Part shown: one piece after another, positions 7,080 through 34,414 of the stretch
How the letters are laid out: each line of letters starts with the position of its first letter
How positions within the stretch are numbered: position 1 is the first letter of the stretch
Assembly: GCF_025370875.1 (NCBI RefSeq)
Contig: NZ_JAMXFD010000014.1
Span: 62,001-126,000 of the forward strand
From: Laspinema palackyanum D2c
GTDB lineage: Bacteria > Cyanobacteriota > Cyanobacteriia > Cyanobacteriales > Laspinemataceae
Length of the DNA stretch: 64,000 nt
Direction: 5' to 3'
The notes under the pieces: generated by a model
What the model was told of the DNA's origin: nothing
The model's database searches: none
The model's input: the letters and a program-made list of their open reading frames with translations, nothing else
Position numbers and translations under genes: made by a program

Positions 7080-9302
7080 TTAAAACTCCAGGTTGGCACA
7101 GAGGAAGGCGATCGCACTTTCCCATTGCACCGTTTGATGGAGAAGATGACGCTGGAATGCTTCCGCCACTGCCTGCACCTCACTCCCTGAGAGCATCTGT
7201 GCCAATCGGTCCCCATAGCTGGGTTTTTCCGACTTGGAGGGAGTAAACCAGCGCTCAAGCATGGCAGAAGTAATCTGTAATTCCTGGTGCGATCGCTCGA
7301 TTTGCAACTGCACCTGAAACCCTACAGATTCTAAATCCCGTTGCAAATCTGCGGCATCCCAATTCACCATCGGGTCCGTAGAATCTTGATAAATTGCCTC
7401 TTCTGCTGCCATCAGGCGATCGCCTAAATTTCCCTTGAGTCCTTTCCCTCCTAACAACCGATATAAACGCTGAGTATAACGTGGCAGGGTTTCCCCTAAC
7501 ACTAACCCGGACGACTCCGACAACAAAGACACCAAACTCCCGGCGATCGCCCGTTTATCCCCTTCTCGAACCAAGGCATTTCGGCCCAGGATGCGGTCAA
7601 ATTTGACCCCAGAGGCTTGTTTGTCCAGGGTTTCCCGGATGTGAGATGAAGACGCTGCCATCACCATCGGACGCATTAATTCCGGCAGGGATGCAGATTG
7701 TTCGATTAACGCTCTCACTTCCGATTCCTGACGGGCGATCGCATAAACTCCCCCTTCTGGGACTCGTCGAACTGCCTCCCAAGTGAGTAACCCACTTTGG
7801 GCGTTCAAATCCAGAATCAGATGATGCCGTTGGGGTTGTGCCATCTCAAATAGGCGATCGCGCACCTCTGTGAGGCGACTGCCGACTTGTCCCAACGTGC
7901 GCTGCAACCAGCGATCGGCAGTGCGATCGCCAGGACCATAAGTGAGAACTTCTGCCGGGGCCACCCCCACCCCTTCCACCATTGCCGCCAACTGCGCTTC
8001 CCTCCGTCGCGCCACCTGGGTGGCAATTTCTGCCTCCTTCCCCTGATTAGACGGTTGATAAAACACCTGTCCCTGCAAACTTTGGGGTAAATATTGCTGT
8101 TCCACCCAATGATCTCGATAGGCGTGAGGATACAAATATCCGGCACCATGTCCAAACCCCTTTTTATCCCGATTCGCATCCTTTAAATGGCTGGGAACCT
8201 CTGCCTCTCGTTCTTTTTCCACGGTTGCTAAGGCATCAAAAAAGGCCATAATACTGTTTGATTTAGGGGCAGTAGCTAAGTATAATGCCGCTTGGGCTAA
8301 ATGATACCGTCCTTCTGGCATTCCCACGCGATCGAAGCTTTCTGCACAAGCATTCACTATCACCACGGCATTCGGATCCGCCAGTCCAATATCCTCACTG
8401 GCTAAAATCAACATCCGCCGGAAGATAAAACGCGGATCTTCCCCAGCATAGACCATTTTTGCTAACCAGTACAGGGCTGCATCCGGGTCAGAACCGCGTA
8501 AACTTTTAATAAAAGCACTGATGGTATCAAAGTGAGCATCGCCTTCTTTGTCATATAAAACCGCCCGTTTCTGGATGGATTCTTCCGCCACCTGCAAGGT
8601 GATGTGAATCTTTCCGGTGTCATCGGGGGGCGTGGTTTCCACCGCCAATTCTAAGGCATTCAACAGCGATCGCGCATCGCCATTGGCAACATCAACCAGA
8701 TGAGCTGTTGCCTCTGGATCCAGATGGACCTGGAGATGTCCATATCCGCGATCGCTATCCCTTAAAGTTTGCTGACAAATCTGCTGTAAATCCTTGGGAG
8801 TCAGGGGAGTCAGTTGAAAAATCCGCGATCGACTAACTAAGGCTTTATTGACTTCAAAATAGGGGTTTTCTGTGGTTGCCCCAATCAAAATAACCGTACC
8901 GTTTTCTACCCAAGGTAAAAGCGCATCCTGTTGGGATTTATTAAACCGATGCACCTCATCGACAAATAAAATTGTCCGTTGGGACGATTCCTGGCGATGC
9001 TGTTGGGCAGTTGCGATCGCCTCCCGAATCTCTTTCACCCCAGAAAGCACCGCATTAATCGCAATAAACTGAGCTTGGGTACTATTAGCAATCACCCGCG
9101 CTAATGTAGTTTTTCCCGTCCCGGGAGGACCATAAAAAATCAAAGAAGAAAGTTGATCCGCCTGAATTGCCCGACGCAACAACCGTCCTTCTCCCAAAAT
9201 ATGGTCCTGTCCAATAAATTCCTCCAAAACCCGGGGTCGCATCCGCGCCGCTAATGGTGCATCTTTCTCAAGATTTGGTTGTGTTTTTGTCTTAAATTTC
9301 AT
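7080..9302 (-). CDS. rarA: RarA/MgsA replication-associated ATPase with extra C-terminal domain
   Basis: 740 residues from the ATG at 9302; a TTG at 9332 would add ten hydrophobic residues and is less likely. Residues 1-430 are a complete RarA (MgsA) clamp-loader-like AAA+ ATPase: Walker A GPPGTGKTT near residue 58, Walker B FVDEVHRF, sensor segment GATTENP, then the tetramerisation and lid helices with SEDIGLADP. RarA acts at stalled replication forks and gaps. Residues from about 440 to the end are additional: a segment LILDLNAQSGLLTWEAV looks like motif I of a Rossmann methyltransferase but lacks the usual GxGxG. The remainder has no recognised motif. Usual bacterial RarA ends near 440 residues. 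Confidence 0.9.
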   Translation of the reverse strand: MKFKTKTQPNLEKDAPLAARMRPRVLEEFIGQDHILGEGRLLRRAIQADQLSSLIFYGPPGTGKTTLARVIANSTQAQFIAINAVLSGVKEIREAIATAQQHRQESSQRTILFVDEVHRFNKSQQDALLPWVENGTVILIGATTENPYFEVNKALVSRSRIFQLTPLTPKDLQQICQQTLRDSDRGYGHLQVHLDPEATAHLVDVANGDARSLLNALELAVETTPPDDTGKIHITLQVAEESIQKRAVLYDKEGDAHFDTISAFIKSLRGSDPDAALYWLAKMVYAGEDPRFIFRRMLILASEDIGLADPNAVVIVNACAESFDRVGMPEGRYHLAQAALYLATAPKSNSIMAFFDALATVEKEREAEVPSHLKDANRDKKGFGHGAGYLYPHAYRDHWVEQQYLPQSLQGQVFYQPSNQGKEAEIATQVARRREAQLAAMVEGVGVAPAEVLTYGPGDRTADRWLQRTLGQVGSRLTEVRDRLFEMAQPQRHHLILDLNAQSGLLTWEAVRRVPEGGVYAIARQESEVRALIEQSASLPELMRPMVMAASSSHIRETLDKQASGVKFDRILGRNALVREGDKRAIAGSLVSLLSESSGLVLGETLPRYTQRLYRLLGGKGLKGNLGDRLMAAEEAIYQDSTDPMVNWDAADLQRDLESVGFQVQLQIERSHQELQITSAMLERWFTPSKSEKPSYGDRLAQMLSGSEVQAVAEAFQRHLLHQTVQWESAIAFLCANLEF

Positions 9303-10151: not shown

Positions 10152-11069
10152 TTAGCGTTTGATGTAAATGGATGACCCTTGATTTTCATCATCGGTCCCG
10201 AAAATTTTGCCGCCAGAAAGACCGGGTAAAAATTCTAAGGCTTCTATTTTATGACCATTAAGGCGATAGAGAGGAGCTAGAGAAGAAGCCGGACGAAATT
10301 CAATCGCGTTGCCGTTCATCGAGAACAAGCCAGCGGCGTAAACAGCGGAATCAAAAGGTCCATCATCTCCGGGGTCGCCAGAGGAAGTGATATAGAGAAT
10401 GCCCGCATTATTAACTTTGATGTCACTAATGTGACGAACAGATTCCTCGGGCCAAGGAACGGTAATCGCAGCCGATCCTTGAACCGAGATTTGATATCCG
10501 TTCCAGTCAAACCAGCCCCAATAAAGTACCCCTGAATCATCGGGACTACCGCGATGACCCCAAACGGCTAACAATTGCCCATTAATCAGGTGTAAATCAA
10601 AGCCTTCTAAATTAGTATTTTCCGGCAAATCTGGAAGAGAAAAGATTTGGCGCAGTTGAATTGTTCCAGTGGAATCGAGGGTGAAATGATAGACTCGTCC
10701 GAAACTGGTGACTGCCATAAAAGCGGAGTCCTGAGTGCCGGGGACAAGGGCGATCGCCTCTAAATCGATCGGCCATTCTTCGCCATCAGGCCACTGCAGG
10801 GGTAAATAATCTAAAGAATCTTGTCCGCGAACCGTTAAAATAGCGATACGACCGTCGCTCTCTATTTTATTGTCATGGACGATCACAAAGCAAGTGGCTG
10901 GGGGACATCCCATCTCCTCAAGAGAGTTTTCAACTAAGGCGATGCCACTAATGCCAAAAAGAATGCCCGTTTTAACGGGACGCCACTGTGCCGAGGCGGA
11001 CAGCAGTGCGATTAAAAAAACCAGAACTGTGGTGGCAGCAGCGAGGAAGAAGGGCGGAACTTTACGCAT
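10152..11069 (-). CDS. Exported hypothetical protein, possible beta-propeller
   Basis: 305 residues from the ATG at 11069, chosen because GGAGAGG lies 7 bases upstream and because the next residues form a clean Sec signal peptide (basic MRKVPP, hydrophobic AAATTVLVFLIALLSASA). A longer open frame to 11183 has no such features. The mature part is rich in short strands, Gly and Asp, with repeated patterns such as ILTVRGQDSLDYLPLQWPDG and FGTDDENQGSSIYI near the end, which suggests a beta-propeller-like exported protein, perhaps a phosphoesterase or sugar-binding relative. Function not known. A large open upstream region separates it from the divergent sensor gene. Confidence 0.7.
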   Translation of the reverse strand: MRKVPPFFLAAATTVLVFLIALLSASAQWRPVKTGILFGISGIALVENSLEEMGCPPATCFVIVHDNKIESDGRIAILTVRGQDSLDYLPLQWPDGEEWPIDLEAIALVPGTQDSAFMAVTSFGRVYHFTLDSTGTIQLRQIFSLPDLPENTNLEGFDLHLINGQLLAVWGHRGSPDDSGVLYWGWFDWNGYQISVQGSAAITVPWPEESVRHISDIKVNNAGILYITSSGDPGDDGPFDSAVYAAGLFSMNGNAIEFRPASSLAPLYRLNGHKIEALEFLPGLSGGKIFGTDDENQGSSIYIKR

Positions 11070-11457
11070 TTGAAACCTCTCCAACGATAGTATTTCCCGT
11101 GAGGGGTGGTTAGGATGAAGGCGATCGCCGATTGCACCCGGGGAAAATCCCAGAGTTGGACCTATCCCCGGTGGGATGAACAACCCGGGATAGTGGTATC
11201 CGGGGGGAAATTTACCCCATTAAGCGATTGAGCTTTGAGGGACTAGACTCTATAAACCGACCTAGAGTTCTGATGGGACAACCCACAAGATGACAGCCCT
11301 AGGGCAGAAAGGTACCTCCGGAGTAATACAATATCACTAGAGAATGAAGAGATTAGACCTCAATTTTCGCAAGCCTTCCCAAACAACCCAGGATAAGTCA
11401 AGATAAACCCTGCAATTGAGGAAGACACTGCGCCGAATTATTAAATGCCTTTAATTT
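11070..11457. other. Divergent intergenic region
   Basis: About 390 bases between the divergent exported-protein gene and the CBS-PAS-GAF-GGDEF gene. It should contain both promoters. A short G-run/C-run hairpin is visible near 11200-11220. No RNA gene or clear promoter hexamer pair was found. Confidence 0.4.
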
Positions 11458-13920
11458 ATGCTTGAAAGTACCGCTTTTTCTGTACAGTTAGCCATTGACC
11501 GCCATCCGTTAACCGTCACGCCAGATACTCCAGTTAGCTCGGCGATCGTGCTGATGAGCCAGGTACAATCGAGCTGCGCGATCGTGGTTGCAGCCGATAA
11601 AATCCTGGGTATATTTACGGAAAGGGATGTGGTGAAATTGACGGCACAGACTGGCGATCTCAACATCGACTCATTCACCAAAGCGTTTAGTAAACAACCG
11701 ATTTCTGCATTAATGACCTCTAGGCCGTTTATTTTACAGGAGGAGCATCTTCCGAATCTCGTCACCCTCTTGGATTTGTTGCGTCAAAAACAGATTCGCC
11801 ATGTGCCCATCGTGGATCCTGATGAGAAATTAGTAGGAACGATTACTTACCAGAGCATTCGGGAAATTATCCAACCGGCAGATTGGATGCGCTTGAGACG
11901 AGTGGTGGAAGTGATGAACCCGAACGTGATTACGGCATCCCCGTCGGCATCGGTGTTGGAATTAGCCACCTTGATGAGCATCCATCGGGTCAGTTGCGTG
12001 GCGATCGCCCAGAATCGCCACCGGGATAATGCAATGCAGACCCCAGAAGTGCCCCCCATGCCAATCCCGATCGGAATTGTCACAGAACGGGATATCCTGC
12101 AACTACAGGCATTAGAACTCAATCTGAGAAAACTGACCGCTGCCGAGGTGATGAGTTCGCCCCTGCTGCTGGTGCAACCGACAGATTGTCTATGGACTGC
12201 TCATCGGTTAATGCGGGAGTATCGAGTCCGACGACTGGTCGTTGCCGATGAGGGGGATTCGTTACAGGGAATCATCACCCAAACCAGTTTACTGCAAGGA
12301 TGTACACCGATTGAGATGGATGCAGCGATCGCCGCATTGCAGGGGTTAGTCGAAGAACGCACCACCGAACTCCAACAGGCGAATGAGCAATTACGACGGG
12401 AAATTTTAGAACGCCAACATACAGAAGCAGCCCTGCTTTTGTCCCAAGCGCGTTTGGCGGGAATCCTCGATAGTGCCGACGATGCGATTATTTCCATTGA
12501 CGAAACTCACCGCATTCAACTGTTTAACCAAGGGGCCGAGAAAATCTTTGGTTACAGTGCAGCCGAGGTGATGGGACAACCCCTAGATCTCCTGATACCG
12601 GAAAATCTGCGTCAGAAGCATCGCCAGTATATTAAAAACTTCCGCGACACCCCGGAAGTATCCCGGACAATGGGGACGCGATCGCAAGTCTTCGGACGCC
12701 GCAAAGATGGGAGCAAATTTCCCGCAGAAGCCTCGATTTCCAAATTAGAAGTCGGTTCCGAACGGCTGTTTACGGTCATTTTACGCGATATTACCAGCCG
12801 AGTTGCGGCCCAAGAAGCCCTGCAATTGCAACTGGAACGAGAACGAGTCATGTCTGCCATGCGCGATCGCATTCGTTCTTCTCTCAATCTTAAAGAAATT
12901 CTCAACACCACCGTTGCCGAAGTTCGACCCTTTTTAAATACCGATCGCGTGATTATTTATCGTTTTCACCCCGATTGGAGTGGCAAAGTTGTCGTAGAAT
13001 CTTGTGGCAATGGAACCCGAGAAATTCTCAACCTCACGATTCTCGACCCTTGCTTTGGGAAAACTCATGCCCAACTTTATCAAAAAGGACGCCTCAAAGC
13101 CACCTCGGATATTTATAGCGCCCCCATCAGTCCCTGTCATCGCAATTTATTAGCCCAGTTTCAAGTTAAAGCTAATTTAGTCGTGCCGATTTTATTAAAT
13201 GAAGACTTTAGCCCCAATTCAGAAGAAGAATTAGTAGAACATTCCCCCGGCGAGAACAATCAACTCTGGGGATTGCTGATTGCTCATCACTGCCAAGGTC
13301 CCAGGCAGTGGCAGAATTGGGAAACGGAGTTTCTCCAACAATTAGCCACCCAGGTGGCGATCGCCATCCAACAATCCACCCTCTTTGAACAATTGCAAGC
13401 GGCAAATCAAGAATTACATCGCCTTGCCTCTCTCGATGGCTTAACTCAAGTCGCCAACCGTCGTTGTTTTGATGAATTTCTTCTTCAGGCATGGCGACGA
13501 AGCCCACCGGATCCCCTCTCCCTAATTTTGTGCGATATTGACTACTTCAAACCCTATAACGATACCTACGGACATCAAGCCGGTGACGAGTGCCTCCAAC
13601 AAGTGGCAGCAGCCCTGGGTCAATGTATCAACCCCAAAAGCGAACTGATCGCCCGATATGGCGGAGAGGAATTTGCTGCCATTTTGCCCAATACCGACCT
13701 GAAAAATGCCTTAGAACTCGCCGAACGAATTAGGATGCAAGTGGCTGAATTACAGATTCCTCATGCTCAATCTCAAGTAAGTTCTTACATCACCATGAGT
13801 TTAGGGGTAGCAACCCTCACCCCCAGTTCCGAAACCACTCCCACCCAACTGATTGCCAATGCCGACGGAGCCCTCTATGTGGCTAAAGCGGAAGGACGCA
13901 ATCGAGTTGTTTGCGCTTAA
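11458..13920 (+). CDS. CBS-PAS-GAF-GGDEF diguanylate cyclase, possible bilin-binding sensor
   Basis: 820 residues. Residues 1-280 hold two pairs of CBS domains (nucleotide sensing; GIFTERDVV, GTITYQSI, GIVTERDIL, GIITQTSLL). A short coiled coil (290-330) leads to a PAS domain (about 335-455; DDAIISID, FNQGAEKIFGYSAAEVMG) and a GAF domain (about 475-650). The GAF carries Cys560-His561 in ISPCHRNLLAQFQVKANLVVPIL, the place where cyanobacteriochromes attach a bilin. The GGDEF domain has an intact active site GGEEF at 735-739, so c-di-GMP synthesis is expected. The inhibitory RxxD site is replaced by PKSE. No membrane segments. Light-regulated cyclase activity is inference. Confidence 0.88.
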   Translation: MLESTAFSVQLAIDRHPLTVTPDTPVSSAIVLMSQVQSSCAIVVAADKILGIFTERDVVKLTAQTGDLNIDSFTKAFSKQPISALMTSRPFILQEEHLPNLVTLLDLLRQKQIRHVPIVDPDEKLVGTITYQSIREIIQPADWMRLRRVVEVMNPNVITASPSASVLELATLMSIHRVSCVAIAQNRHRDNAMQTPEVPPMPIPIGIVTERDILQLQALELNLRKLTAAEVMSSPLLLVQPTDCLWTAHRLMREYRVRRLVVADEGDSLQGIITQTSLLQGCTPIEMDAAIAALQGLVEERTTELQQANEQLRREILERQHTEAALLLSQARLAGILDSADDAIISIDETHRIQLFNQGAEKIFGYSAAEVMGQPLDLLIPENLRQKHRQYIKNFRDTPEVSRTMGTRSQVFGRRKDGSKFPAEASISKLEVGSERLFTVILRDITSRVAAQEALQLQLERERVMSAMRDRIRSSLNLKEILNTTVAEVRPFLNTDRVIIYRFHPDWSGKVVVESCGNGTREILNLTILDPCFGKTHAQLYQKGRLKATSDIYSAPISPCHRNLLAQFQVKANLVVPILLNEDFSPNSEEELVEHSPGENNQLWGLLIAHHCQGPRQWQNWETEFLQQLATQVAIAIQQSTLFEQLQAANQELHRLASLDGLTQVANRRCFDEFLLQAWRRSPPDPLSLILCDIDYFKPYNDTYGHQAGDECLQQVAAALGQCINPKSELIARYGGEEFAAILPNTDLKNALELAERIRMQVAELQIPHAQSQVSSYITMSLGVATLTPSSETTPTQLIANADGALYVAKAEGRNRVVCA

Positions 13921-21796: not shown

Positions 21797-22894
21797 CTAC
21801 CTAGGCGATCGCCGAGGGGGGAAAAAATCAGGAAGGTCCAATCCGGGCCAACTTGGAGGCGGTATTTCCGGTTGAGGTGTGGGAGTTGGAGGTTTGGCAA
21901 CCCGCGATTGAGGTGTGGGAGTCGGAACTACCCGGGTTTGAGGGAGAGAAACCTGCGGTTCATTGGAAAATCCGGTGGCGATTAAGGTCATTCTCATTTC
22001 TCCATGCAGGCGATCGTCAATCACCGCACCAAAAATAATATTGGCATCCGGATCCACCACGTTATAGACTTCTGCCGCTGCCACATTTACTTCATGTAAG
22101 GTGAGATCCATGCCGCAGGTAATGTTAAAAACAACCCCTTTAGCACCATTAATCGAAGAATCTAAGAAGGGAGAAGACATGGCTGAAATCGCCGCCTGTC
22201 TAGCGCGAGATTGTCCTTGACCAATTCCTATCCCCAGTAAAGCAGTTCCGGCGCGACTCATCACCGATCGCACGTCGGCAAAATCCACATTCACCACCCC
22301 GGGAATAACAATTAAATCGGAAATCCCCTGTACCCCCTGGCGCAGAATATCATCCGCCACCCCAAAGGCATCCTGAACCGGCATATTGTCAGAAATCACG
22401 GACAACAATTTCTCATTGGGAACGGCGATCGCTGTATCCAAGCGAGTCTGTAATGCTGTAATCGCTTCCTCGGCAAGATGACTGCGCCGTTTCCCCTCGA
22501 AGGCAAAGGGACGAGTCAAGACCCCAATGGTGAGTGCCCCTTGTTGTTTGGCAATTTCCGCGACAATTGGAGTGGCCCCAGTGCCGGTTCCCCCGCCCAT
22601 GCCTGCGGTAATAAAGACTAAATCACTCCCTTCCATCGCTGCGGCAATTTGACTGCGCGCATCTTCTGCCGCTTTTTGTCCGATGATAGGATTGCCCCCG
22701 GTTCCTAACCCTTGGGTGAGTTTCTGCCCGATTTGAATGCGGCGATCGGCACGGCATTGGGCTAACGCTCTAGCATCGGTGTTGATCCCGACAAATTCTA
22801 CCCCAGACAGATCGCTGGCAATCATCCGGTTGATGGCATTACACCCGCCACCCCCGACGCCGATCACGGTAATTTTAATGAGACTATCGAGCAC
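21797..22894 (-). CDS. ftsZ: FtsZ, short form
   Basis: 365 residues, tubulin-like cell-division GTPase. Visible: N-terminal [14 protein letters not shown], signature GGGTGTG at 100-106, the synergy T7 loop NVDFADV (202-208) with both catalytic Asp residues, and a Pro-rich linker ending in [14 protein letters not shown], the conserved C-terminal peptide. The start must be GTG, since an in-frame TAA lies shortly upstream and no ATG intervenes; AGGAG is 11 bases before it. It therefore lacks the 40-60 residue N-terminal extension usual in cyanobacterial FtsZ. It is not next to ftsQ or murC, so it could be a second paralogue. It shares direction with the upstream fusion gene (63 bases away). Confidence 0.9.
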
Positions 22895-22957: not shown

Positions 22958-25477
22958 TTACCCAACGATAATAACCCACATCCCCAAAGCTAATCCGAGG
23001 GTGGCTAAATGTTGGGGAATCAGCGATCGCAGGGACTCTTTGGCAATTTTTTGGGTTAACAGAATGCTGAACCCTACGGCAGCAATGAGGGTGGTTCCCT
23101 GCAAAAAGGCAATCACTGCTGGATGGGCAATCCACACCGGCAACCCTTCCCCACTCAACCCAAAGGTGGCAAAGGTAACAGGTAAAATCCGTCCCGCTTC
23201 TCCCAATCCCAAGCGCAAATAATGAGCCAAACTTCCCCCTAAAACTAAGGGTAAATATCCATAGGCTAATTGGACAAAGGGTTTGGATTTGAAGGTGCGG
23301 TTCAGTTGGGCGATCGCCACCCCGGCAAGTAACACAACAGCGGCAGGAACCCCTAATGCCGCCAGGGAGAATCCCAAATGGGTCCAAAATTGGCTTAAAT
23401 CAATCCCTAATCCTAAGACGGCATTAATCTCGGGCAACCGATGCAGAAAGATTCCCCCTAAAAGTAACAGCAACAAGGCGACTTCATAGCTACGAGGCTG
23501 ATGAGTGGTCCACAAATCAATTCCCGGCGGTCGTAAGTTGAATTCTACGGACCGATGGGGACAGGCTTTTAAACAGGTCATGCATAAGACACAATCCCGG
23601 TTATCTTCTAATTGGGCAGGATGAGAATAGAGAGGACAGCCATTGGTTGCCATTCCTTCCCCTTTTTGCGGACCTCCTTTATAACATTGATAGGTGGTGC
23701 ATTCGGCAGAACAGGTTCCCTGTTGTGCTCTTAATTCGGTCATGGAGAGTTTGGCAAACAGCCCATTCATGCCGCCAATGGGACAGAGATATCGACACCA
23801 AAACCGCCGTTCAAAGATGGCGGAACAAATCATTGCTCCGGCGGTGATTAAGAGGAGTAACCAGGCGGAAAGATAGGCAGTATTTTCCAATTTCCAGAGT
23901 TCTTCCCAGAGGAAAATTAGGGTAAATAAGCCAAACAGAAACCAGCCTCCCCATTTTTCCGCTTGCTGTCGGGGCCAGGGTTTGAGGTTATGTTTTAATA
24001 ACTTTTCGGAGATTTTTTGGGTAATTTCTCCATAAATCATGAAAGGACACACTGCACACCACAAGCGACCGACAAAGGGAAAGGCGAATAAGACTAATGG
24101 CCACCACCAGGCCCAAAAGAAGTTGAGGGCAAAGTTTTGATCGCGGGTTTGCGGACCGAGAAATAAGATGGCAATCACCAGGGCAAAGGCAACGACGGTA
24201 AAGCCATAATTAATGCGATCGGGCCACCAAGGACTACGCAGAAAATGGCGTAATTTGGGGTAAGCATTCAGTAAATTGAAGCGAAATTGCTTTTTCTTCC
24301 CTTGGGCGGGCCAGAAAATTTCTTCCGTTAATTCTCGGGCGCAATCCGACTGGACGATCGCGCGTTCTACTAAGCTTTCCAACTCCCGAATATTCCCGGG
24401 GAAATCATAAGATTGCAGACGACGGAGAGCTTCTGGGGTGAGTTGGGGTTTGCTCAGACCTTTGGCGCGACAGTACAAGCTAATATAATACTCGACTTGA
24501 GCGCTAATGTCGGCTTTTCGGACTCGCAGGGGAGGAACTTTGAGGGTTTGGTCCAGATGAGGGGCGATCGCCGGAAGCTGTTTTTCTGCGATCGCTAGAA
24601 TTTTGGCGGGGGTGGATTTAGGCGGGGCGGGACTGTCCCCTTCTCGGGTGACGGGTGTATAAGTGGAGGTTTTTAACAGGGTGGCGATCGCCTCAACCAG
24701 TTCCTCCGGCAGTTCGTCAATGTTGTTTAAAACGAGGGTTCCTTCCCCCAACCATTCGATCAGTCCCGGTTTCCCGCCCACCCGTCCAAAAAGTTCGGCC
24801 CCCCCTTTTTGGAGAATTCCACAGTTGATTTTGACAATTGGTTGCCGACGGTGAGGGGAACCATAGTGAATCAGGGCGGCAATATTATCTTTTTCTAATC
24901 CGGGTTCCCCGAAAATATAGACCGATCGCCTATCAGAACCCGCCTCTCTAATCTGCTGCCTGAGACGTTTGGCATAGCGACTTCTGCCCACAATTCCCCG
25001 TTTTGCTTTGGTAACAAGATAGGGGCGTAAAGCATCTTGTCGTTCTTGTTCATAAGTTAGCGCACTCGACACCTCGGCAAGTTCTTGGGCGAGTTGTCGG
25101 TTCAGAGTTTGGGTGATTTCTGGGTATTGCCGGACTAATTCTTGAACTTGGTCCCCGGGGACAAACCAGAATTTAGATTCGGTGACGGTAGAAATCCGCT
25201 GTTCTGACGGTTGGTCTAAGAGTAATTCTCGGAGGTTAATCGTGCAACCCGGACCCAATTCACCAGAGGAACGGGGGGCATTTTTCAAGGAAGTTTGTAA
25301 CTGTCCTTGAAGAAGGATGTAGAATCCGGTGGGGGATTTTCCCGGTTCGGCGATCGCCTGGTTTGCCGGTAAGATTTGTTCTTGGATGACGGAGGCGATC
25401 GCCCTTAAGGATGCCTCGGATAAACGACTCAACGCCGTTCTTTCCTGCAACCAGGTCACCGGATTGATTTCTGTCAT
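22958..25477 (-). CDS. cNMP-domain / degenerate sigma54-type AAA / polyferredoxin membrane fusion
   Basis: 839 residues from the ATG at 25477 (GGAG 6 bases upstream). Residues 10-125: CRP-like cyclic-nucleotide fold. Residues 160-395: NtrC-type AAA domain with altered Walker A (GEPGLEKD, 190-197), no GAFTGA loop (ELFGRVGGKPGLIEWL) and Walker B Asp changed (LVLNNIDEL). Residues 430-839: NosR/NapH-like membrane block with C474AVC477P, C561RYLC565P and a ferredoxin motif C629xxC632xxC635xxxC639P, then more membrane helices. Cyanobacteria lack sigma54, so activation of that factor is excluded; a membrane redox/nucleotide sensor or electron-transfer protein is inferred. Relatives are usually labelled sigma-54-interacting regulators. 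Confidence 0.85.
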   Translation of the reverse strand: MTEINPVTWLQERTALSRLSEASLRAIASVIQEQILPANQAIAEPGKSPTGFYILLQGQLQTSLKNAPRSSGELGPGCTINLRELLLDQPSEQRISTVTESKFWFVPGDQVQELVRQYPEITQTLNRQLAQELAEVSSALTYEQERQDALRPYLVTKAKRGIVGRSRYAKRLRQQIREAGSDRRSVYIFGEPGLEKDNIAALIHYGSPHRRQPIVKINCGILQKGGAELFGRVGGKPGLIEWLGEGTLVLNNIDELPEELVEAIATLLKTSTYTPVTREGDSPAPPKSTPAKILAIAEKQLPAIAPHLDQTLKVPPLRVRKADISAQVEYYISLYCRAKGLSKPQLTPEALRRLQSYDFPGNIRELESLVERAIVQSDCARELTEEIFWPAQGKKKQFRFNLLNAYPKLRHFLRSPWWPDRINYGFTVVAFALVIAILFLGPQTRDQNFALNFFWAWWWPLVLFAFPFVGRLWCAVCPFMIYGEITQKISEKLLKHNLKPWPRQQAEKWGGWFLFGLFTLIFLWEELWKLENTAYLSAWLLLLITAGAMICSAIFERRFWCRYLCPIGGMNGLFAKLSMTELRAQQGTCSAECTTYQCYKGGPQKGEGMATNGCPLYSHPAQLEDNRDCVLCMTCLKACPHRSVEFNLRPPGIDLWTTHQPRSYEVALLLLLLGGIFLHRLPEINAVLGLGIDLSQFWTHLGFSLAALGVPAAVVLLAGVAIAQLNRTFKSKPFVQLAYGYLPLVLGGSLAHYLRLGLGEAGRILPVTFATFGLSGEGLPVWIAHPAVIAFLQGTTLIAAVGFSILLTQKIAKESLRSLIPQHLATLGLALGMWVIIVG

Positions 25478-29896: not shown

Positions 29897-32800
29897 ATGA
29901 AAAATAAGAGCATTGATGAGTTAATTGATATTCTGGAAACCTTTAGTGATGAGTTTATCCGCAGACTAGCGGCAGAAAGATTAGGTCAAATCGGCAAAGG
30001 TAACGAAACGGCAATTTCAGCGTTAGTCCATCTTCTAAAAACTACTAATGATGAGCTCACACGCATACAAGCGGCATACAGCTTAGGTCAAATCGATCCG
30101 GGTAACAAAACGGCAATTTCGGCCTTAGTCAATCTTCTGGAAACTACTAACTATGAGTTTCCCCGCAGACAAGCGGCAGAAAGTTTGGTTCAAATTGGCA
30201 AAGGTAACGAAACGGCAATTTCAGCGTTAGTCAATCTTCTGAAAACTACTAACTATGAGTCTACCCGCATCCAAGCGACATACAGCTTAGTTCAAATCGG
30301 TAAAGGTAACGAAACGGCAATTTCGGCGTTAGTCAATCTTCTAGAAACTACTATCCATGAGAATACCCGTAGACACGCGGCAGAAAGCTTAGTTCAAATC
30401 GGCCAAGGTAACAAAACGGCAATTTCGGCGTTAGTCAATCTTCTAGAAACTACTATCCCTGAGAATACCCGCAGATACGCAGCATATAGCTTAGGTAAAA
30501 TCGGCCAAGGTAACGAAACCGCAATTTCGGCGTTAGCCAATCTTCTGGAAACTACTATCTATGACTTTACCCGCATACAAGCGGCAGAAAGCTTAGCTCA
30601 AATAGACCCAGGTAACAAAAGGGTAATTTCGGTGTTAGTCAATCTTCTGGAAACTACTAAATATGAGTTTCCTCGCAGACAAGCGGCAGAAAGCTTAGTT
30701 CAAATTGGCAAAGGTAACGAAACGGCAATTTCGGCGTTAGTCAATCTTCTGGAAACTACTCACAATGAGGATATCCGCAGACAAGCGGCAGAAAGCTTAG
30801 TTCAAATTGGCAAAGGTAACGAAACGGCAATTTCTACGTTCGTCAAAGATAAAGAAACGGTAATTTCGGCGTTAGTCAATCTTCTGGAAACCTCTACTGA
30901 TGAGACTACCCGCAGACAAGCGGTAGAAAGCTTAGTTCAAATTGGCAAAGGTAACGAAACGGCAATTTCGGCGTTCGTCAATCTTCTGGAAACTACTACC
31001 GAGGAGAATACCCGTAGACAAGCGGCAGAAAGCTTAGTTCAAATTGGCAAAGGTAACGAAACGGCAATTTCGGCTTTAGTCAAGCTTCTGGAAACTACTA
31101 CTGATGAGGATACCCACAGACGAGCAGCAGAAAGCTTAGGTCAAATTGGCAAAGGTAACGAAACGGCAATTTCGGCATTAGTCAATCTTCTAGAAACTAC
31201 TACCGAGGAGAATACCCGTAGACACGCGGCAGAAAGCTTAGTTCAAATTGGCAAAGGTAACGAAACGGCAATTTCGGCATTAGTCAATCTTCTAGAAGCT
31301 ACTATCCATGAGAATACCCGTAGACACGCGGCAGAAAGCTTAGTTCAAATTGGCAAAGGTAACGAAACGGCAATTTCGGCATTAGTCAATCTTCTAGAAA
31401 CCTCTACTGATGAGAATACCCGTAGACACGCGGCAGAAAGCTTAGGTCAAATCGATCCGGGTAACAAAACGGCAATTTCGGCGTTAGTCAATCTTCTAGA
31501 AACTACTACCGATGAGCGGACCAGCATACTAGCGGCACACAGCTTAGGTCAAATCGACCCATGTAACGAAACGGTAATTTCGGCGTTAGCCAATCTTCTG
31601 AAAACTACTAATGATGAGTTCACACGCATACAAGCGGCATACAGCTTAGGTCAAATCGATCCGGGTAACAAAACGGCAATTTCGGCGTTAGTCAATCTTC
31701 TGGAAACTACTAACTATTATGATGATTTTCCCCGCAGACAAGCGGCAGAAAGTTTGGTTCAAATTGGCAAAGGTAACGAAACGGCAATTTCAGCGTTAGT
31801 CAATCTTCTAGAAACTACTATCCATGAGAATACCCGTAGACACGCGGCCTACAGCTTAGTTCAAATCGGCAAAGGTAACGAAACCGCTATTTCGGCCTTA
31901 GTCAATCTTCTAGTAACAACTACCGATAAGAATATCGGCAGACACGCAACATACAGCTTAGGTGAAATTGTAGGTATCTCGTCTCATCTTTTGTTCAGGC
32001 CAGATCAGATTGCATCGTCTGTTATCGATAAAAGACAGTGGCTACACTTTATCTGGCCAATATGCGCCATAATCTTTGGCTTCCTTGGCTCGCTTATGGG
32101 GACATACTATATTTTTCCTATATGGCAAAACTATTTCGTTCTGTTATTAATCAATACAAGTGGGTGGCTTCTTGTTTATATACATTTTTTGTGTCTAGTT
32201 TTTTTAATTTCCAAGTCTTGGTCAATAAGAAAAACTTATGTTTATCTAGAAAAGACATTTTTCCCGTGGCTTAATCAACAAAAAATTAAGAGGAAAATTA
32301 TTATTTATTATACTCAGATACTCACCCATAGCCAAGATGAATTTGTACAATTGCAAGCAATAAAAAATTTGAAATTAGTTGCCAATGGCAGCAAACCTGC
32401 AATTGTAGCATTGATTAAGACTTTGAGAGCCAACAAAAATGAATTTATCCAGTGGCAGGCCATCAAAAGTTTAGGAAATATTGGAAACAATAACAGAAAG
32501 GCACTCACGGCCATTATCAAATTTATCGAGACTACATCTAATGAATTTATCCGATGGCAGTCTTTAGAAGAGTTGGAGAATTTTAAGGTTCTTTATTTTT
32601 CAAACGTCATCCAAATTCGCCAAAAATTAAAAAGTAATAGAGTTCCATCGATTCAATCGGCAATTTTGAATCTTCAAAAGAAACTTGATCCCCTAGAAAG
32701 GCTAATTTTAAAACCTTTTAATCAAAGATTAGTCAAAGGATTACGTTCAGAATATTCTGTGAAAACTATATTTGGCGATAGTATTTTCAATTATATTGAT

Positions 32801-34414
32801 AAAATGCAGCAAGGGCAAGACATTAAAAGTCGTCGAATTTTGATAAACTCCTGCTTGGAAATTCATCAAAGTTTAGTAAAATTTGCTTTACAGAACAAAG
32901 ACTTTAATCGAGCATTTTTCTACACAGAAATCTTCAGAAACCGCTATTTGGTAGAACGCATCGCCCAACAAGATACCCCCTTCCCTGCTACTATCTCCAA
33001 GCAACTCGCCCAAAACATCAACATCGCCAAACAAAGAGAACGCCAAACCTTACAAGCCTATACGGACGGCATGAATAAGCATCTCTCAGAATTGGAATTA
33101 GCAGCCCTCAGTCTGGTCTGGGAAAATGCTAAAGAAATCTTAGAAAACCTTTACCACCAAGTTGCGGAAATTGAACCGGAATTTATCGCAAAAACCAAAG
33201 TTTACCCCATTTCTTTCCAGGAAGTTCAAGATTTCCTGCCCTCAGACACAGCAATTATTGAGTTTTTCTTCACGGAAAACGAACTCATCACTCTGCTGAT
33301 TCTCCCCGGACACGAATCCCCCTTAATTCCTGAACAACTGCGAGTCAATCTCAAACCCCAGAATCCTTTAGAACGGTTGGCGCGAGCCTGGGAGGAAGAT
33401 TTAAAGGACAAAAGCAAATCTAAAAACGACGCAATCCAGACGACTCTGGAAGAGTTACCCAGGCGCATTGACCATCTGGGAGAATTGCTCAATTTCAGTG
33501 AGTTAGAGAAATACCTCCCGCGCCAGATTCAGCAGTTAATCATCGTTCCCAATAACAGTTTACATCTGTTTCCCATTCACGCGGTCCCCTTGAATCCAAC
33601 TCAGCGCCTGATTGACCGTTTTTCAGTTCGCTATTTCCCCAACCTGCAAATCTGGAAAATTTGTCAAAACCGCCAAAGGTCTCGCGATTCGTTTCTGGGT
33701 ATTGAAAACCCCACGCAGGACAAGGATTTAATCTTTGCTAAAGCGGAAATTGCTAGTATTTGCCAGCGTCCCAACTTTAGGGGAAAGTACAAGGTTTTAC
33801 CCCGCCCCAATGCCCAAGTCAAAAAATCTGAAATTCTGGAGGAGGCAAAAAATTACCATTGTTTCCACTTTTCCGGTCATGCAGAGTACAATTTTAAGAA
33901 TCCCCTAGACTCCTATCTGATGCTATCGAAAGACCGCAAAGACCACCAGGAGGACCTCACCCTGAGTAACCTGTTTGCCGACTTGCACCTCCCCGACGCT
34001 GACTTAGTGACCCTTTCCGCCTGCTGTACCGGGGTGGTGGATGCCTTTCAACCCACGGATGAGTGTTTGGGGATTGCTACCGGGTTCCTCCTGGCGGGTG
34101 CGAAAGCGGTTGTCAGCAGTCTGTGGAAAGTCAATTCCATCGCCACTGCCTTTCTCCTGGATGAATTCTACCGTCAGCTAGAACAGACCCCAGATAAAGC
34201 CGTGGCGCTGCAAAATGCTCAAAACTGGTTGCGAACTCGCACGGCAGATGAGTTGATACAGCGGTCAAATGAGTGGGATTTGAGTAAACTAGAACGGGAA
34301 AACAAACTAGAACGGGAAGACAGAATTGCTTTGGATGCCAGTCTCCGAGAATTACCGGATACTCCGTTTGAGAATCCTTATTTTTGGAGTCCATTTATTC
34401 TAACGGGATGTTAA
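29897..34414 (+). CDS. HEAT-repeat CHAT-domain protease with membrane segments
   Basis: 1505 residues. Residues 1-690 are about 20 tandem HEAT/PBS-lyase-like repeats of 34 residues (consensus AISALVNLLETT then RRQAAESLVQIGKGNET). Two hydrophobic segments follow (about 715-740 and 746-772), then two or three more diverged HEAT repeats (800-900), a helical linker, and a C-terminal CHAT caspase-like domain. The catalytic dyad is His1328 in HFSGHAEY and Cys1376 in LSACCTG. CHAT domains are cysteine proteases, activated in known cases when a repeat-rich sensor part binds a trigger. The gene starts a cassette: next ATG is 3 bases after its stop. HIP1 sites are absent, suggesting acquisition. Confidence 0.88.
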   Translation: MKNKSIDELIDILETFSDEFIRRLAAERLGQIGKGNETAISALVHLLKTTNDELTRIQAAYSLGQIDPGNKTAISALVNLLETTNYEFPRRQAAESLVQIGKGNETAISALVNLLKTTNYESTRIQATYSLVQIGKGNETAISALVNLLETTIHENTRRHAAESLVQIGQGNKTAISALVNLLETTIPENTRRYAAYSLGKIGQGNETAISALANLLETTIYDFTRIQAAESLAQIDPGNKRVISVLVNLLETTKYEFPRRQAAESLVQIGKGNETAISALVNLLETTHNEDIRRQAAESLVQIGKGNETAISTFVKDKETVISALVNLLETSTDETTRRQAVESLVQIGKGNETAISAFVNLLETTTEENTRRQAAESLVQIGKGNETAISALVKLLETTTDEDTHRRAAESLGQIGKGNETAISALVNLLETTTEENTRRHAAESLVQIGKGNETAISALVNLLEATIHENTRRHAAESLVQIGKGNETAISALVNLLETSTDENTRRHAAESLGQIDPGNKTAISALVNLLETTTDERTSILAAHSLGQIDPCNETVISALANLLKTTNDEFTRIQAAYSLGQIDPGNKTAISALVNLLETTNYYDDFPRRQAAESLVQIGKGNETAISALVNLLETTIHENTRRHAAYSLVQIGKGNETAISALVNLLVTTTDKNIGRHATYSLGEIVGISSHLLFRPDQIASSVIDKRQWLHFIWPICAIIFGFLGSLMGTYYIFPIWQNYFVLLLINTSGWLLVYIHFLCLVFLISKSWSIRKTYVYLEKTFFPWLNQQKIKRKIIIYYTQILTHSQDEFVQLQAIKNLKLVANGSKPAIVALIKTLRANKNEFIQWQAIKSLGNIGNNNRKALTAIIKFIETTSNEFIRWQSLEELENFKVLYFSNVIQIRQKLKSNRVPSIQSAILNLQKKLDPLERLILKPFNQRLVKGLRSEYSVKTIFGDSIFNYIDKMQQGQDIKSRRILINSCLEIHQSLVKFALQNKDFNRAFFYTEIFRNRYLVERIAQQDTPFPATISKQLAQNINIAKQRERQTLQAYTDGMNKHLSELELAALSLVWENAKEILENLYHQVAEIEPEFIAKTKVYPISFQEVQDFLPSDTAIIEFFFTENELITLLILPGHESPLIPEQLRVNLKPQNPLERLARAWEEDLKDKSKSKNDAIQTTLEELPRRIDHLGELLNFSELEKYLPRQIQQLIIVPNNSLHLFPIHAVPLNPTQRLIDRFSVRYFPNLQIWKICQNRQRSRDSFLGIENPTQDKDLIFAKAEIASICQRPNFRGKYKVLPRPNAQVKKSEILEEAKNYHCFHFSGHAEYNFKNPLDSYLMLSKDRKDHQEDLTLSNLFADLHLPDADLVTLSACCTGVVDAFQPTDECLGIATGFLLAGAKAVVSSLWKVNSIATAFLLDEFYRQLEQTPDKAVALQNAQNWLRTRTADELIQRSNEWDLSKLERENKLEREDRIALDASLRELPDTPFENPYFWSPFILTGC
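29990..31990 (+). repeat. 102-base tandem repeat array encoding HEAT units
   Basis: Successive units beginning AACGAAACGGCAATTTC repeat every 102 bases, often more than 85 percent alike at DNA level. One truncated insert (AISTFVKDKET, about 30830-30855) and one two-codon insertion (about 31715) break the period. Units 17-18 resemble units 2-3, which points to a block duplication. Confidence 0.9.

Follow-up and report, generated by a model that had tools for sequence, protein, structure and literature searches.

A cyanobacterial membrane polyferredoxin with degenerate CRP-like and NtrC-type AAA domains, and a paralogue encoded near cysteine synthase and sulfide-related genes

Introduction

The question raised by the locus described here is what a single cyanobacterial protein may do when a CRP-like domain, an NtrC-type AAA domain and a membrane-embedded polyferredoxin are joined in one reading frame. 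The gene is located in a stretch of 64,000 nucleotides of Laspinema palackyanum D2c (assembly GCF_025370875.1, contig NZ_JAMXFD010000014.1, positions 62,001 to 126,000 of the forward strand), which was analysed as a whole and is referred to below as the window. In the current work, this copy (designated type 1) was compared with its relatives, and the reading to which we assign a probability of roughly 0.5 is that of a membrane protein that transfers electrons and whose head is regulatory or oligomerising. What is new here is a paralogous clade (designated type 2) that is linked to cysteine synthase and sulfide-related genes. No functional study of this protein was found in the literature searched, which mostly excluded subscription papers.

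Results

Domain layout and integrity of the gene

The reading frame starts with the ATG at 25477 and ends with the stop codon at 22958-22960 on the minus strand, an alternative TTG start being possible 24 codons upstream of the ATG. A Pfam search of the 839-residue product, in which matches were read down to E values of up to 1, identified cNMP_binding at residues 36-118 (40.5 bits, cutoff 27.5), Sigma54_activat at residues 162-278 (47.7 bits, cutoff 20.2), AAA_lid_14 at residues 318-384 (54 bits, cutoff 27) and Fer4_5 in two stretches (36.9 bits, cutoff 22), with Fer4 staying below its cutoff (16.7 versus 21.1 bits). These matches bear out the architecture proposed by an earlier reading of the letters without database searches (the sequence-only reading), namely a CRP-like part, an NtrC-type AAA part and a NapH-like membrane module. 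The features, with the evidence used for each in brackets, are:

22958..25477, minus strand: whole gene, type 1 copy, 839 amino acids plus stop, CRP-like, degenerate NtrC-type AAA and membrane polyferredoxin parts
25058..25477, minus strand: CRP-like domain (cNMP-binding fold), residues 1-140, the least conserved part (Pfam, alignment, conservation, structure model)
25193..25240, minus strand: remnant of the phosphate-binding cassette, residues 80-95, with G, E and R replaced (MloK1 alignment, counts over 79 sequences)
24308..25003, minus strand: degenerate NtrC-type AAA core and lid, residues 159-390 (Pfam, structure model versus 1ny5_B)
24887..24910, minus strand: altered Walker A GEPGLEKD, residues 190-197 (alignment)
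24722..24742, minus strand: altered Walker B GTLVLNN, residues 246-252 (alignment)
23750..24217, minus strand: first membrane part with CX2CP and CX3CP, residues 421-576 (Pfam, conservation, model)
24044..24058, minus strand: CX2CP motif, residues 474-478 (alignment)
23780..23797, minus strand: CX3CP motif, residues 561-566 (alignment)
23510..23749, minus strand: ferredoxin-like segment, residues 577-656, the most conserved part (conservation)
22961..23509, minus strand: C-terminal membrane part that follows the NapH-like core, residues 657-839 (conservation, model)

The set of relatives consisted of the best 80 of 187 coding relatives obtained by a scan of named prokaryote genomes; all 80 loci are from contigs titled cyanobacteria, at identities of 59-96%. 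More than 800 amino acids are encoded in one frame at 78 of the 80, and the two short copies (672 amino acids at a contig end, and 634 amino acids) were excluded from the alignment, which is made up of 79 rows (78 long relatives and the window copy). Across 290 genomes of the class, 240 were matched, 41 of them weakly (E above 1e-100) and 199 strongly (E below 1e-100, type 1 or type 2), with losses being patchy. Although the combination of domains is unusual, as a misassembled or chance fusion of two genes might be, the single frame at 78 other loci on other contigs and the strong matches in 199 genomes refute such a fusion, and the claim that one polypeptide carries all three parts holds. A plasmid scan matched 1,924 records, of which two, both cyanobacterial, cover at least 80% of the query; one carries the annotation 'cyclic nucleotide-binding domain-containing protein' and the other 'nitrogen assimilation regulatory protein', names that are not supported at residue level, the ligand and catalytic positions being missing. 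Interrupted or split copies were observed at L104/L124 (genome G180), L119 (G211) and L107/L123 (G067), in each case with relatives that keep the gene whole, and represent either decay or draft error.

The putative membrane iron-sulfur module is the most conserved part

Twelve cysteines (474, 477, 561, 565, 589, 593, 598, 614, 629, 632, 635 and 639) are invariant in all 79 sequences. Four of these lie in the first membrane part, within the motifs CX2CP (C474-C477-P) and CX3CP (C561-C565-P), and the eight others belong to the ferredoxin-like segment (C589, C593, C598, C614-P and C629-x2-C632-x2-C635-x3-C639-P), in which two ferredoxin-type sets are present, the first being irregular. These cysteines would be expected to hold iron-sulfur clusters. 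Of the NosR/NapH-like 4Fe-4S module put forward by the sequence-only reading, the CxxCxxCxxxCP motif (C629-C639-P) is present, with the correction that the first membrane motif is CX2CP. Mean entropy over the 79 rows is 0.25 bits in the ferredoxin-like segment and 0.59 bits in the first membrane part, rising to 1.22 bits in the AAA part, 1.31 bits in the last helices and 1.84 bits in the CRP-like domain, the highest of the five parts compared.

The closest named model is that of NapH/MauN (TIGR02163; 53.1 and 55.1 bits, curated cutoff 213.05). A membrane core with Cys-Pro motifs and two ferredoxin-type sets is shared with both NapH/MauN and NosR/NirI/RdhC, from which the present protein differs by its irregular first ferredoxin set, its extra C-terminal helices, its fused CRP-like and AAA parts and the lack of a Pfam match, at E up to 1, to the flavin mononucleotide-binding domain that is a trait of NosR/NirI/RdhC. 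Compared with NapH/MauN in particular, the score is far under the cutoff and the first motif is CX2CP rather than CX3CP. Passages of PMC5928378 describe two ferredoxin-type cysteine sets in NapH and NosR, propose that the membrane part of NapH oxidises quinol, and report that mutation of the Cys-Pro motifs disturbs NapH and that NosR and PceC, at first called regulators, were later moved to electron transfer; it is on these findings that the electron-transfer reading is based.

The module also exists without the head: a standalone form is encoded in Deinococcus ficus (about 31% identity, E 4e-34), and two haloarchaea have a standalone module that matches more weakly and has fewer ferredoxin cysteines. 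A phylum scan with the module alone matched 43 of 146 genomes, while two genomes of the same phylum outside the class gave weak partial matches only. On the Deinococcus ficus plasmid pDFI1 (L151), the standalone module gene is preceded, with a 4-base overlap, by a gene at 8042-8968, the histidine-rich product of which begins with a hydrophobic, signal-like stretch, may be secreted and matched no Pfam family at a threshold of E 0.01. A role of C-terminal histidines in heme ligation was considered and dropped, since H700, invariant in the main set (79/79), is absent from five type 2 copies, eight aligned copies of family f15 and three type 1 variants.

The head has lost ligand and catalytic residues

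According to the alignment and the structure model, the cNMP-binding fold itself is retained. The register of the phosphate-binding cassette was taken from the alignment to the MloK1 cyclic-nucleotide domain, which places its G, E and R at residues 81, 82 and 91, and at each of these positions the canonical residue occurs in 0 of 79 sequences. The domain therefore resembles CRP/FNR and cyclic-nucleotide-binding domains in fold and Pfam match but differs from them in its pocket and, from CRP/FNR, also in having no C-terminal helix-turn-helix by Pfam. As far as residues can tell, the protein is probably not a cyclic AMP (cAMP) sensor. Synechocystis slr0593 is a possible, perhaps likely, orthologue. 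In a table of PMC3516471, slr0593 is listed as 'cAMP binding membrane protein', with lowered mRNA after 3 and 12 h without iron; the cAMP binding implied by this name is not supported by the residues of the present family.

In AAA proteins of the NtrC family (bacterial enhancer-binding proteins), the GAFTGA loop, the DE of Walker B and the arginine finger have their roles in sigma-54 activation and ATP hydrolysis. In the protein studied here, Walker A reads GEPGLEKD, with G190, G193 and K196 each found in 79/79 sequences and with residue 195, before the lysine, being Glu in 71, Gly in 7 and Gln in 1, whereas the Walker B region reads LVLNNI, N251 being invariant (79/79). GAFTGA is absent from all 41 sequences (of 42 aligned) that cover the region, the loop at this site being 8 residues shorter than that of NifA, and neither the DE of Walker B nor a FREDLYYRL-like arginine-finger motif occurs in the aligned set. 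The absence of GAFTGA and the altered Walker motifs claimed by the sequence-only reading are thereby confirmed. Considering these Walker A and B changes and the missing arginine-finger motif, ATP hydrolysis is very unlikely and nucleotide binding uncertain. The GEPGLEKDN-type loop is mostly kept by type 1 and f15 copies, including copies with a different Walker B, which suggests a use other than hydrolysis.

The AAA model superimposes on 1ny5_B with a Z score of 22.2 (root-mean-square deviation 3.1, 225 residues aligned) and on VpsR 7v2b_D with a Z score of 19.6 (4.4, 225 residues). VpsR is also the best solved sequence relative of this part, and in the printed alignment it too has N-D in Walker B and lacks GAFTGA. 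The fold and lid are hence shared with the NtrC family, and the D-to-N change in Walker B with VpsR; the differences from the NtrC family are the lack of GAFTGA, DE and arginine-finger motif, the lack of any DNA-binding domain (helix-turn-helix, Fis-type included) among Pfam matches at E up to 1, and the occurrence as a membrane-bound protein in a genome without sigma-54. Sigma54_DBD gave no match in the Laspinema palackyanum D2c genome, while E. coli, B. subtilis, Caulobacter and a Bacteroides were matched among the controls. No convincing sigma-54 match was obtained across the 290 genomes of the class either, four of which gave fragments of 33-41 codons only (one just above threshold, at 23.7 bits versus a cutoff of 22.8), in keeping with the earlier statement that cyanobacteria have no sigma-54. 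In view of these results, this AAA domain is no activator of sigma-54.

Judged from these residues, the signalling parts are more degenerate than the sequence-only reading had stated. Its proposal that redox state and nucleotide signals are coupled at the membrane is not supported in its cAMP-type ligand part (G/E/R in 0/79, no ATP-hydrolysis residues), and in its redox part is supported by conservation, that of the 12 cysteines.

Architecture variants

Family f15 has small genomes and may correspond to the picocyanobacteria. Eight whole f15 copies (L110-L112 and L114-L118; 657-725 amino acids) have no CRP domain but keep the AAA part and the module, and the CRP part is likewise missing from the reading frame, with AAA and module kept, in L097 and L098 (type 1, family f35) and in L113 (type 2). 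In L095 (genome G024, family f37), a protein of 1121 amino acids contains two AAA units in tandem, with G-K still present in Walker A, and D in Walker B, of the first unit. In a tree of 50 module sequences, rooted with a Deinococcus outgroup on a long branch and with its base unresolved, type 2 forms one clade (support 94/100), as do the f15 copies (100/100); a single type 1 clade is not demonstrated, as three changes are required. L097 and L098 fall together with a type 1 copy that has the CRP part (82/76), so that its loss from these two looks secondary. Genomes G142 and G176 each contain a second, more divergent full-length copy (L101 and L100, respectively) which is not type 2 by score and in which residues of the ferredoxin region drift, with cysteines kept.

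Type 2 is linked to cysteine synthase and sulfide-related genes

In the class scan, 41 type 2 copies score above 1250 bits and two partial ones reach 871 and 954 bits, the next copy, a full-length type 1, attaining at most 800 bits; given this clear gap, type 2 is present in at least 43 of 388 genomes, a lower bound because fragmented copies could be missed. A second match, being type 1 where listed, is found in 28 of these 43 genomes. The type 2 module is 50% identical to that of the window's type 1, and a canonical GKT P-loop is present in all five type 2 copies for which motifs were tabulated, with the Walker B aspartate in three and DE in none.

At 24 of 35 type 2 loci, the cysteine synthase gene (cysK; 414 bits versus a cutoff of 351 for this label) follows downstream within 1.5 kb and on the same strand, and at 16 of them within 150 bases. 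None of 20 type 1 loci in genomes that also carry type 2 has it that close (one distant match of 27% lies at 7.9 kb), and none of the 80 named type 1 loci has it within 9 kb. Of these 20 paired loci, 17 are from genomes whose type 2 locus is among the 35 (the others being from G259, G155 and G069), and the mean flank searched was 15.9 kb for type 2, 16.7 kb for paired type 1 and 12.9 kb for the 80 named type 1 loci. Also within 9 kb of type 2, genes were found for rhodanese (11/35), sulfide:quinone reductase (SQR; 9/35), a YgaP-like membrane protein (9/35), psbA (8/35), petC (8/35), cydA with cydB (6/35) and ArsR (5/35), so that 23 of the 35 loci have at least one of these seven tallied markers. 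All seven are at 0/20 in the paired type 1 loci, while psbA is seen at one and arsR at three of the 80 named loci, the other five being at zero. Enrichment over the paired loci is significant for rhodanese, SQR, YgaP-type, psbA and petC genes (p 0.004-0.019 each) and a trend for cydAB (p 0.056) and arsR (p 0.09), with these Fisher values overstating independence because some of the type 2 loci are closely related (five share 89-100% identity with the query copy).

The SQR representative is far under the only NCBIfam SQR model matched (selenoprotein type) and matches the solved sulfide-quinone reductase 3hyv, the enzyme from Aquifex, at 1e-103. At E 1e-80, SQR is present in 34 of 43 type 2 genomes versus 65 of 345 others, part of this co-occurrence being linkage because the SQR query was drawn from the surroundings of a type 2 gene; SQR and type 2 are nevertheless on different contigs or far apart in several genomes (G005, G006, G136 and G147). 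At a threshold of E 1e-150 for the studied protein, SQR is present in 49 of 176 genomes with non-type-2 matches only versus 16 of 169 genomes without match, the latter including the lower-scoring CRP-less f15 copies, and this excess probably reflects genome size. Two type 2 copies are on plasmids, pPg_03 of Pseudanabaena galeata (L154) and plasmid2 of Aulosira laxa (L155), both with the cysteine synthase gene following them, psbA and petC genes within 10 kb and sulfur-handling genes beside them, and these islands possibly constitute a mobile sulfide-tolerance kit. According to passages of PMC5061849, an anoxygenic cyanobacterium has sqr-arsR operons and several forms of psbA; cysteine synthase is unmentioned in those passages. 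The associations with cysK, the marker genes and SQR tie type 2 to sulfide/anoxia redox stress.

Neighbourhood of the type 1 copies

The mapping of genomic neighbours that the sequence-only reading had proposed thus gave cysK at 24 of 35 loci for type 2 and no widely conserved neighbour for type 1 (81 loci, that is the 80 and the window). The two largest type 1 neighbour clusters, an ABC ATPase and a response regulator (labels by eye), occur in mixed places and on mixed strands. At eight of the 81 loci (L018, L019, L021, L078, L079, L084, L087 and L088), a small secreted-looking protein of about 200 amino acids is encoded upstream on the opposite strand, five of these loci being near copies (96-99% in the main protein). 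A link to NiFe hydrogenase was dropped as weak (82/199 versus 24/91, p 0.018) and confounded by small genomes, and a copper/zinc role as too thin, with few Fur-like neighbours and one histidine-rich Deinococcus neighbour. At L131, a Fur/Zur-like gene (label by eye; 10554-10964) begins 4 bases after a CRP-less f15 copy and is followed by an overlapping gene with a metallo-hydrolase look (10961-11698), the order being similar in L132 and L133.

Within the window, two further genes were noted:

21797..22894, minus strand: second ftsZ, 365 amino acids, 63 bases downstream of the studied gene
29897..34414, plus strand: protein of 1505 amino acids in which a hydrophobic stretch (by eye) separates 13 HEAT_2 stretches from a C-terminal CHAT (caspase-like) domain

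The genome has two FtsZ_C copies, the other one being on contig C3, and the same-strand pairing with ftsZ is seen at four of the 81 loci (the window and L012-L014).

Discussion

In the favoured electron-transfer reading, the C-terminal part would transfer electrons between the quinone pool and a partner in the cytosol or the membrane, in the manner proposed for NapH or NosR, by means of two Cys-Pro motifs between helices, two ferredoxin-type sets and extra helices. The CRP-like and AAA domains would be descended from parts of transcription regulators, with neither DNA binding nor sigma-54 remodelling and probably without ATP hydrolysis, and would form an oligomerising or gating unit for sensing a signal that is not canonical cAMP. 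Type 2, which cysteine synthase usually follows, would be dedicated to sulfide/anoxia stress, whereas the window's type 1 copy may be a general version with a related job under ordinary conditions. At the level of sequence, the argument for this is that the module is conserved most and the CRP part least, that the module exists headless, that the CRP part is missing from the frame of several copies while AAA and module stay, that Pfam gives no helix-turn-helix, and that type 2 is linked to cysK, marker genes and SQR.

Several observations weigh against this reading. The module resembles NapH/MauN but is not assignable to it, given 55.1 bits against a cutoff of 213; its predicted structure gave no PDB match at E 0.001, and the ferredoxin segment has a predicted local distance difference test score under 50. 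A second C-terminal structure comparison yielded no Z score of 8 or above, although such null structure searches are no argument against likeness to NapH. Since K196 is invariant, some ligand binding by the AAA P-loop is possible. As to sulfide, all seven markers are missing at 12 of the 35 type 2 loci, and 9 of the 43 type 2 genomes have no such SQR; the link belongs to type 2 and not to the window's own type 1, the Laspinema palackyanum D2c genome having neither type 2 nor this SQR, and among type 1 neighbours no cluster recurs at more than 11 of the 81 loci.

VpsR acts without sigma-54, and it is the best solved relative of the AAA part, with the same N-D Walker B and missing GAFTGA. A membrane-bound transcription regulator, whose iron-sulfur part senses redox and whose AAA domain acts on sigma-70 RNA polymerase as VpsR would, is thus conceivable, and NosR and PceC were at first named regulators too; their reassignment to electron transfer (passages of PMC5928378), the lack of a Pfam DNA-binding domain and the conservation of the module, also found headless, rather than of the head make such a regulator improbable, and our own reading is that the protein is not a transcription factor. 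Non-hydrolysing AAA parts can serve as scaffolds, and CcoG offers an analogue for a maturation factor, in which the module would reduce a metal or disulfide for the assembly of a membrane cofactor enzyme and the AAA-like head would act as chaperone or docking unit. The histidine-rich gene that overlaps the Deinococcus ficus module, as well as the proximity of type 2 to cydAB (6/35 loci) and petC (8/35), fit this proposal, which nevertheless seems rather unlikely, the former being a single locus whose product has no Pfam family and cysK being a commoner partner than either cydAB or petC.

Carried further, the electron-transfer reading leads to a tentative proposal that we put forward as a possible history: that an almost complete set of transcription-activator parts (a CRP sensor and an NtrC AAA domain) became, within cyanobacteria, the non-DNA-binding, non-hydrolysing gate of a membrane iron-sulfur electron carrier, and was then duplicated into a sulfide-dedicated form that might act together with cysteine synthase in directing electrons or sulfur where photosynthesis is exposed to sulfide. 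With about two thirds of the examined cyanobacterial genomes (199/290, either type) carrying this protein, the link of type 2 to cysteine synthase and SQR provides a direct experimental entry point, and it opens the question of how cyanobacteria sustain photosynthesis and sulfur chemistry under sulfide.

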